Below, in pieces: positions 23,244 through 25,638 of a DNA stretch of 64,000 nt (position 1 is its first letter; each line of letters opens with the position of its first letter). The translations under genes and the position numbers were made by a program. This DNA comes from Caenimonas sedimenti (GTDB lineage Bacteria; Pseudomonadota; Gammaproteobacteria; Burkholderiales; Burkholderiaceae_C). The notes under the pieces were generated by a model that ran no database searches, was not told the origin of the DNA, and was given only the letters and a program-made list of their open reading frames with translations. Location of the stretch: positions 62,001 to 126,000 of the forward strand of contig NZ_VOBQ01000004.1 of the NCBI RefSeq assembly GCF_007833165.1, in the 5' to 3' direction.

Positions 23244-23900
23244 ATGCCCCAGACCCTCAAGATCGATTTCGTCTCCGACGTCGCGTGCCCCTGGTGCGCC
23301 GTCGGCCTGGCCTCGCTGGAGACCGCGCTGCGCAAGCTCGACGGCGAGGTCGCCGTCGAGATGCACTTCCAGCCGTTCGAGCTGAACCCGGACATGCCGC
23401 CCGGCGGCCAGGACGTGACCGAGCACCTCACGCAGAAGTACGGGTCGACGGCCGAGCAGCAGGCGGTGGCGCGCGAAGGGATCCGCAAGCGCGGCGAGGA
23501 GGTCGGCTTCAGCTTCCGCAAGGAGGGCCGCGGCCGCGTCTACAACACCTTCGATGCGCATCGGCTGCTGCACTGGGCCGGGTTGCAGGGCGCGGATGTC
23601 CAGCGCAAGCTGAAGATGGCGCTGCTGGAGGCCTATCACGGCCAGGGCCGCAGCATGGAAGACCAGGCCGTCCTGCTGGATGCGGTGACGCAAGCCGGGT
23701 TGGACCGCGCGGAAGGCGAGACCGTGCTGAAGGAGGGGCGCTACGCCCAGGAAGTGCGGGCCACCGAACAGCACTTCCAGTCGCTCGGCATCCGGGCCGT
23801 GCCCTCCGTGATCATCAACGACCGGCACCTGATCCAGGGCGGGCAGCCGCCCGAGATGTTCGAGCAGGCGCTGCGCCAGCTCGCGGCGCAAGGCGAATAG
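23244..23900 (+). CDS. DsbA-family (FrnE-like) thiol oxidoreductase
   Basis: Cytosolic DsbA-fold protein of 218 residues, FrnE/DSBA-like group. The redox motif CPWC is at residues 15-18 in SDVACPWCAVGL, and the cis-proline loop is GIRAVPSVIINDR. There is no signal peptide, consistent with FrnE proteins, which act on cytosolic disulfides in oxidative stress. The gene ends 6 bases before the interleaved inverted-repeat element. The substrate is unknown. Confidence 0.92.
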   Translation: MPQTLKIDFVSDVACPWCAVGLASLETALRKLDGEVAVEMHFQPFELNPDMPPGGQDVTEHLTQKYGSTAEQQAVAREGIRKRGEEVGFSFRKEGRGRVYNTFDAHRLLHWAGLQGADVQRKLKMALLEAYHGQGRSMEDQAVLLDAVTQAGLDRAEGETVLKEGRYAQEVRATEQHFQSLGIRAVPSVIINDRHLIQGGQPPEMFEQALRQLAAQGE

Positions 23901-23906
23901 CCAGCG

Positions 23907-24177
23907 CTAGGAGCCTGGGCGGCAGAGAAACGGGCCTGCGTTGGGCCGAGAACAGGGCTCAGGCTAGGCGCGGTCGCGGGTCAAGACTGGCCGTCTTGAC
24001 CCGTGACCGGAACGACGCATGAGCCCTGTTCTCGGCCCAACCCTTCGGGCCGGTACCTGAATCAGCGCCATGCGTCGTTACGGCCTCCTTGAGTGCGAAA
24101 GCACACGGCGTCGGCCGCGCCTAGCCTGGCGCTGATTCAGGTGCCGGCGCAGGCCCGTTTCTCTGCCGCCCAGGCTC

Positions 24178-24181
<4 letters not shown>
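23907..24181. repeat. 275-bp interleaved inverted-repeat element between convergent genes
   Basis: Gene-free DNA in which almost every base has an inverted partner. Pairs: P1 34 bp perfect (23907-23940 / 24148-24181); P2 22 bp perfect (23940-23961 / 24020-24041); P3 14 bp perfect (23960-23973 / 24115-24128); P4 17 bp, one mismatch (23971-23987 / 23993-24009); P5 15 bp, one mismatch (24007-24021 / 24069-24083); P6 22 bp, one mismatch (24049-24070 / 24127-24148); and a small GTGC-GAAA-GCAC hairpin at 24093-24104. P2 and P6 cross P3 and P5, so two different folds are possible, both within P1. Its right arm supplies the tldD stop codon. It may end transcription of both convergent genes, or be a mobile or structured-nucleic-acid element. 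Confidence 0.85.

Positions 24182-25638
<1,457 letters not shown>

Follow-up and report, generated by a model that had tools for sequence, protein, structure and literature searches.

Organization of the locus

The window analysed here is a stretch of 64,000 nucleotides of the Caenimonas sedimenti genome. Within it, the space between a DSBA-domain gene and a convergent PmbA/TldD-family gene contains a 275-bp element (Table 1). The last 34 bases of this element are the reverse complement of its first 34, forming a perfect terminal inverted repeat (stem P1), which encloses two hairpins closed by stems P2 and P6 and joined by a linker. Each hairpin contains a module of two motifs flanking a core hairpin, and the ends of the two modules are in turn complementary to each other, giving the potential stems P5 and P3; for P3, at least 12 of 12 bp were complementary in the register tested, or about 14 bp by reading of the sequence. 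In aligned copies, the family boundary was sharp at both ends of the element. An earlier sequence-only reading had described the terminal repeat, the P2 and P6 stem pairs, the complementary module ends, the 17-bp left core hairpin, the small right core hairpin, the position between convergent genes and the supply of the tldD stop codon by the element, and all of these were confirmed.

Table 1. Features of the element and its neighbours in the window (R1, model of the right hairpin; percentages, complementarity of the two arms)
Feature	Position	Strand	Remark
DSBA-domain gene (left neighbour)	23244-23900	+	
Whole element	23907-24181	+ (strand on which model R1 reads the right hairpin)	275 bp, counting the CTAG at each boundary
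Left terminal inverted repeat (P1 5' arm)	23907-23940	+	first four bases, CTAG, contain TA
Left hairpin (stem P2, motif A, core hairpin, motif B)	23940-24041	+	matched by R1 on the opposite strand
P2 arms	23940-23964/24017-24041		96%
Motif A AGGCTAGGCGC	23961-23971	+	conserved family-wide
Left-module core hairpin	23971-24009	+	differs from genus to genus
Arms of left core hairpin	23971-23987/23993-24009		94%
P5 arms	24007-24021/24069-24083		93%
Motif B GGAACGACGCATG	24009-24021	+	alignment of copies
Linker CCC-TTC-GGG	24041-24049	+	middle triplet elsewhere GAA, TCC, GGA, TGC or GCA
Right hairpin (stem P6, motif B', core hairpin, motif A')	24049-24148	+	fold, covariation and R1
P6 arms	24049-24073/24124-24148		92%
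Motif B' CATGCGTCGTTAC	24069-24081	+	alignment of copies
Right-module core hairpin GTGC-GAAA-GCAC	24093-24104	+	sequence and fold
Motif A' GCGCCTAGCCT	24117-24127	+	internal CTAG; alignment of copies
Right terminal inverted repeat (P1 3' arm)	24148-24181	+	CTAG is the last four bases
Stop codon TAG of PmbA/TldD-family gene	24178-24180	-	made by boundary CTAG
PmbA/TldD-family gene (right neighbour)	24178-25638	-	convergent with DSBA-domain gene

Dispersed copies and range of the family

The genome that contains the window (5.9 Mb, 51 contigs) gave 47 BLAST matches to the element, palindromic places being counted on both strands, and these included a full copy and shorter forms without the left hairpin. 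Contigs C2, C3, C18 and C48 end within copies, which suggests that the element interrupts the draft assembly. Matches were present in 18 of 61 genomes of the same genus and in 37 of 200 genomes of a family sample (own genome included in both counts), and full-length copies of approximately 60-71% identity were found in other genera. A pattern consisting of the element end and the bases that follow it identified 24 stretches of named genomes, of which 22 were assigned to Ramlibacter, one to Comamonadaceae and one to Burkholderiales. No match to the element was detected in the plasmid and phage collections.

For more distant relatives, we used R1, a model of the right hairpin only, built from 37 sequences. 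At E <=0.001, R1 gave candidate matches in 77 of 300 genomes of the order, belonging to 44 of 135 genera, and in 54 of 369 genomes drawn from the class, 52 of them labelled 'same class', which we read as outside the order. At the class level, 15 of 19 loci had a terminal repeat (at least 24 of 30 positions) beyond the region covered by R1, delimiting elements of 260-298 bp, and at the order level, the terminal repeats of 35 of 40 fetched copies matched at 22 or more of 32 positions. A set of 97 extracted elements, which takes in 14 of the 19 class-level loci and these 35 order-level copies, ranged from 260 to 282 bp, a length too short for a DDE transposase. For alignment, 61 loci with a match of at least 240 bp were reduced to 48 copies (28 from the same genus and 20 from others) by omission of cut, deleted, doubtful or duplicate copies; alignments A1 and A2 contain 38 and 37 of the 48, respectively. 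Copies with conserved stems but changed cores were found among these relatives.

Very short forms, consisting of terminal repeats set nearly back to back or of one lone repeat, were also observed (L116, L019, L022, L111 and G023:C19:201327-201376). Their joints lie at short repeated words, which suggest deletion through microhomology.

A three-stem fold maintained through paired changes

Both RNA and DNA folding gave a single clear three-way structure, P1+P2+P6, as the minimum-energy fold. The fold energy was far below that of shuffled sequences (z = -17.98 for RNA of the + strand and z = -18.16 for DNA of the - strand; 0/200 shuffles as good in each case). Covariation was analysed in A1, which comprises Ramlibacter and other genera, against slid controls and 500 column shuffles; with the reservation that kinship among sequences can beat such shuffles without any structure, 0/500 shuffles reached the value observed for P1+P2+P6 by any of five measures. 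Double changes were found in 61 of 70 pairs, 96.2% of cells were paired, and the covariation was 0.545, compared with 0.140 in shuffled and at most 0.102 in slid alignments. RNAalifold, applied to the alignment of copies, counted double changes in 73 of 90 pairs. The three-stem fold, in which P1 encloses two hairpins, is thus kept through paired changes.

The sequence-only reading had proposed two alternative folds, P2/P6 and P3/P5, and with them a bistable nucleic acid or the target of a four-way junction enzyme. The proportion of paired cells for P3/P5 was slightly above that of the shuffles (82.8% against 81.1%; 2/500 as high), as was the covariation (0.093 against 0.076; 4/500 as high), and slid versions were lower (at most 0.048). 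The measures that count paired change gave a different picture: double-changed pairs were no more frequent than in shuffled columns (9 against 8.0; 182/500 as high), double-changed cells were near the shuffled level (22 against 17.1; 39/500 as high) and further pair types were below it (20 against 22.0). The P3/P5 fold therefore has little support of its own, a small excess in two of five measures, and it was not favoured by folding of either RNA or DNA. Of the two folds first proposed, only the three-way structure stood, and we consider a bistable or junction-forming function very improbable.

The complementarity of the module ends has its source in the kinship of the two hairpins. R1 matched the right hairpin (24038-24150), which is itself among its 37 building sequences, and also the left hairpin on the - strand (23938-24052; E 4.9e-12, E-values being rough). 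Judged by this resemblance, the left and right modules are inverted relatives, arranged as A-core-B and B'-core-A', and P3 and P5 are complementary because two related hairpins carry motifs A and B in inverted orientation. In four other copies (L021, L043, L118 and L119), the right-hairpin module was 84-85% identical to the left module of the window, inverted. By a rough motif rule, the modules had opposite orientations in 65 of the 97 elements and the same orientation in eight, with 24 unscored; the rule is fallible, as L314 is opposite by eye, while L315 is clearly same-way.

Target site, empty sites and stop codons

A typical copy ends in CTAG-GAGCC...GGCTC-CTAG. Mixed flanks were also found (TTA on the left with TAG on the right, GTA with TAG, and TTA with TAT), and these are compatible with a 2-bp TA duplication. 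A 4-bp duplication of CTAG was considered as well and is less likely, because the left and right four bases often differ, whereas TA fits.

The flanks of 12 copies were joined over one TA and compared with 60 Ramlibacter genomes. Many matches crossed the joined flanks, and 20 of these, covering eight of the 12 copies, were fetched. Five showed a clean TA joint: L214 (GCTA|GCC), L199 (CCTA|GCG), L196 (CCTA|ACG), L200 (CTTA|AGG) and L206 (CCTA|GGC), which are the empty sites of four copies (L029, L096, L034 and L084). In the remaining 15, the joint was gappy or read otherwise, for example TGA for TA(G); the element is absent there, yet a TA duplication is not visible in them. From the mixed flanks and the five clean empty sites, the target-site duplication of the family is TA. 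The copies are dispersed, and relatives have uninterrupted sequence at the places where other copies of the element lie, the joint being TA in the clearest cases; in this sense, the element is mobile, as the sequence-only reading had suggested among its possibilities. Related sequences exist, their stems co-vary, and empty sites and a target duplication were obtained, these last for copies other than that in the window.

Among 30 fetched loci around tldD (own locus included), none provided an empty site for the copy in the window. Both the full element and the DSBA-type neighbour were present only in the own locus, and the tldD flank was rejected as an empty site since no other fetched locus had that neighbour; the loci matched on the minus strand were left unturned, and the junction viewed in them is not the tldD end. 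A lone element end was located 0.7 kb from the tldD locus in L186.

Many copies provide the stop codon of an adjacent gene. With genes called by in-house codon-score scripts rather than a trained gene finder, 17 of 48 copies had a left-hand gene that ran into the element and ended with the TAG at element bases 2-4, and 14 had such a gene on the right; both sides were affected in six copies and at least one side in 25, including that of tldD in the window. The neighbours were convergent in 13 copies, in line in 21 and divergent in 10, one side being unresolved in the other four. One copy (L029) is flanked by convergent genes, each of which stops at the element boundary, and the empty site facing it (L214, genome G014) reads CTAG. 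Because G is the first element base after TA, a TAG or TAA stop that receives the element is regenerated as TAG.

Terminal repeats and candidate transposases

The ends vary widely within the family (GGGCCTGTTAACACTA, GAACCCATTTCATAAATAG, GGTTCTGTTGACGTAAGG, GGGCTCGTTAATGGATAA, GAGCCTATTTCAGTAGG and more). In what follows, the labels IS5 and IS630 are based on Pfam domains together with the general characters of those families. In one genome (G431), 13 DUF4096 matches were found, 12 of them equal-scoring loci, and all 12 loci lay inside elements of approximately 0.86 kb with the ends TAGAATTCATTTCATAAATAG (or near) and TAGAACCCATTTCATAAATAG. The one locus that was checked also carried a DDE_Tnp_1 domain, the two domains being in two frames. 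Among 11 family copies fetched from the same genome, six started with exactly the 21 bases TAGAACCCATTTCATAAATAG and two were one base off, while three had quite different ends (GGGCCTGTTCAC...). Thus, for most of the fetched copies of this one genome, the terminal repeats are the ends of a resident IS5-type element. The copies L255-L257 and L258-L265 represent two end classes in this genome, only one of which matches the resident element.

Four Ramlibacter elements (L027, L043, L118 and L119) have ends of another class, class d, with TAGTGTCCTGTCCC. Of 18 DDE_3 loci collected from 59 Ramlibacter genomes, four had ends that were the same or nearly the same, and the class-d ends thus resemble IS630-type ends in Ramlibacter. 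The ends, differing between bacteria, apparently suit different transposases. Two copies of the own genome, L021 and L027, were identical at 126 of 136 alignment columns of the interior and at 9 of 16 outer bases, a contrast that looks like an exchange of ends. A further end class, approximately GGGCCTGTTAACGCTATTTTTG followed by CGATGCG, was observed on the same plan in three copies of the own genome (L023, L024 and L026) and in L045 (G034).

The ends of the window copy (class a) gave no such match: a pattern search of five copy-rich genomes detected no element of IS length with this pair of ends, and the ends were absent from the 18 DDE_3 loci of 59 Ramlibacter genomes and from four DDE_Tnp_1 loci of nine genomes. 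As none of the five copy-rich genomes contained a DDE_3 match, class-a copies may now be immobile or may be mobilized by other means.

At two places in the own genome, L017 (near 768, C50) and L018 (near 659, C7), the internal CTAG of motif A' was joined to sequence starting with TAGTGTCCTGTCCC, as if an IS had inserted into this CTAG. Both places are near contig ends and might be the two sides of one insertion. Pfam assigned no family to the fragment of 85 residues that follows the TAGTGTCCTGTCCC end in L017, so that its designation as IS630-type is by its ends alone.

The element is gene-less, short and bounded by terminal inverted repeats, as is a miniature inverted-repeat transposable element (MITE), and is too short to be an IS5-type element with a transposase of its own. 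A REPIN moved by a RAYT (HUH/Y1) protein would likewise be palindromic, gene-less and placed at gene ends, and some short deletion forms of the present family are plain palindromes. The length of approximately 270 bp, the two internal hairpins, the TA boundary and the agreement of the G431 ends with an IS carrying a DDE transposase domain make such an origin very improbable.

Maintenance of the stems

Among 38 copies, the two terminal repeats of a copy differed on average at 0.68 of 31 bases, compared with 8.97 between copies, and 22 copies had no mismatch. In some copies, changes of the left end relative to every other copy compared were mirrored at the right end: three in L090, three in L036, two in L086 and two in L097. 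In the terminal stem P1, 200 double-changed cells were counted, against 9 G.U and 9 A.C cells, which indicates change at the DNA level with neither RNA strand favoured. The linker loops of 90 of the 97 elements formed three reverse-complement pairs (TTC 39 and GAA 13; TCC 21 and GGA 6; TGC 10 and GCA 1). Template switching between inverted repeats, with homogenization of the arms and inversion of the spacer, has been reported (PMC8604942, PMC8794818). By analogy, the mirrored changes and inverted loops suggest that the stems are kept up by template switching.

Alternatively, the arms may be identical through selection for a perfect stem in transposition, by single changes followed by compensation. 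Unmirrored changes do exist, since 16 of 38 copies carried at least one mismatch in the terminal repeat (26 altogether, six of them in one copy). The mirroring of multi-base changes, the scarcity of G.U and A.C cells next to double-changed cells in P1 and the occurrence of loops as reverse-complement pairs are less easily reconciled with stepwise compensation, which we regard as possible and the weaker of the two accounts.

A different pattern was observed in the hairpins, in counts of cells that are not independent events. In the left hairpin, G.U cells exceeded A.C cells (45 against 4; 14 against 2 columns), as a role of the + strand as RNA would predict, while the right hairpin leaned alike on the opposite strand (A.C 28 against G.U 16; 15 against 9 columns), one invariant column pair being excluded. 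This pair, columns 178:223 of A1 in the right hairpin, is U.G in 38 of 38 copies and adjoins conserved GTTG/CGGC; a DNA-only view leaves it unaccounted for. The G.U excess of the left hairpin points to some RNA-level constraint, which a DNA-only account would not need.

These observations raise the question of a functional RNA at gene ends, spread by transposition and kept as RNA: a bidirectional transcription stop, an RNase III substrate or a 3'-end stabilizer. The strong fold, the wobble preference of both hairpins and the position of the copies, which hug gene ends and in 13 cases separate convergent genes, are in agreement with such a role. On the other hand, the terminal stem has no wobble preference, divergent genes flank 10 of 48 copies, and a TA/CTAG target alone could yield the location at stop codons. 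Neither a promoter nor a T-tract terminator was found between 23700 and 24400, and no Rfam family matched the window at or above the gathering threshold; the miRNA matches at the element were sub-threshold and of the long-hairpin kind. In the Rfam search of 18 loci of relatives, only t44 and one tRNA passed, both off the element, and two miRNA matches were below threshold. We consider a primary role as functional RNA unlikely.

Discussion

Taken as a whole, these results are best explained by a gene-less, non-autonomous transposable element of approximately 270 bp, similar to a MITE, and we hold this interpretation with high confidence. An IS transposase would recognize the terminal repeats and mobilize the element in trans, and ends that are exchanged or evolve would allow the same interior to be carried by IS5-type and IS630-type transposases. 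Insertion into a TAG or TAA stop would spare the protein, as TA and the first base G of the element restore TAG, and this would account for the persistence of copies at gene ends. The stems would remain near-perfect largely through template switching, in which DNA polymerase copies one arm off the other, a process that would invert loops and the interiors of hairpins as well. The two-hairpin plan, along with motifs A and B, may be retained by selection acting on the strand when folded, either as transposing DNA or as RNA.

A bolder reading joins these points: throughout Gammaproteobacteria (as delimited by GTDB), the family may be one ancient folded parasite, bound to no one transposase. The conserved cargo would then be no gene, only a strand of two hairpins bearing motifs A and B, which would bind a putative class-wide host factor; the ends would have been altered to fit IS5-type and IS630-type transposases, and the element would settle in stop codons, restore them and renew its own stems by template switching. 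We offer this reading tentatively, the balance of our judgement being against it in its complete form.

Bacterial MITEs are usually regarded as short-lived derivatives of a single IS. If true, a family that hardly varies in length or fold across a class, exchanges its ends and inserts without harm to stop codons would exemplify a stable lifestyle of a gene-less parasite. The family would also call for caution in structure searches, as paired change can arise without selection on RNA, and it offers a natural system for measuring the upkeep of inverted repeats by template switching.

The literature search, with subscription journals mostly outside its scope, found no description of the family. 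The Acinetobacter element MITEAba12 (PMC6382973) and the Pseudomonas syringae element MITEPsy1 (PMC3189936) are likewise gene-less and dispersed, with terminal inverted repeats and ends of a resident IS, the last being seen here in one genome. These elements are 100-114 bp long with one IS each, and their recorded ranges are Moraxellaceae for MITEAba12 and mainly the P. syringae complex for MITEPsy1, whereas the present family has a folded interior of approximately 270 bp, class-wide range and differing ends. MITEPsy1 is reported at CTAG or YTAA targets with a 4-bp duplication, and MITEAba12 with a 9-bp duplication, in contrast to the TA of the present element.

TA is found at the ends of RUP of pneumococcus, thought to be mobilized by IS630-Spn1, and of the Correia/NEMIS elements of Neisseria, whose transcripts are proposed RNase III substrates; as described in PMC2229807, both are 107-155 bp long and form a single stem from their two ends, without arms and linker, unlike the present element. 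The CIR repeats of Caulobacter/Brucella share the plan of two long hairpin arms and a linker and are intergenic, but are listed in that source without a terminal inverted repeat and with a GANTC motif at the loop (PMC2229807). In the template-switch cases, homogenization of arms and inversion of spacers, including GAA to TTC in a yeast gene, correspond to the changes observed here; those cases concern RNA genes and a yeast coding sequence, while the present one concerns a transposon family (PMC8794818, PMC8604942).

A REPIN, with two inverted REPs of 20-40 bp and a RAYT gene, differs in build. The earlier statement that no REP, ERIC, attC, CRISPR or MITE of this build is known holds for Rfam and the literature searched, but not for the general kind: non-autonomous elements with terminal inverted repeats are already known, and the present family departs from the MITEs compared here in how deeply its folded interior is conserved, in its pair of modules and in the diversity of its ends.
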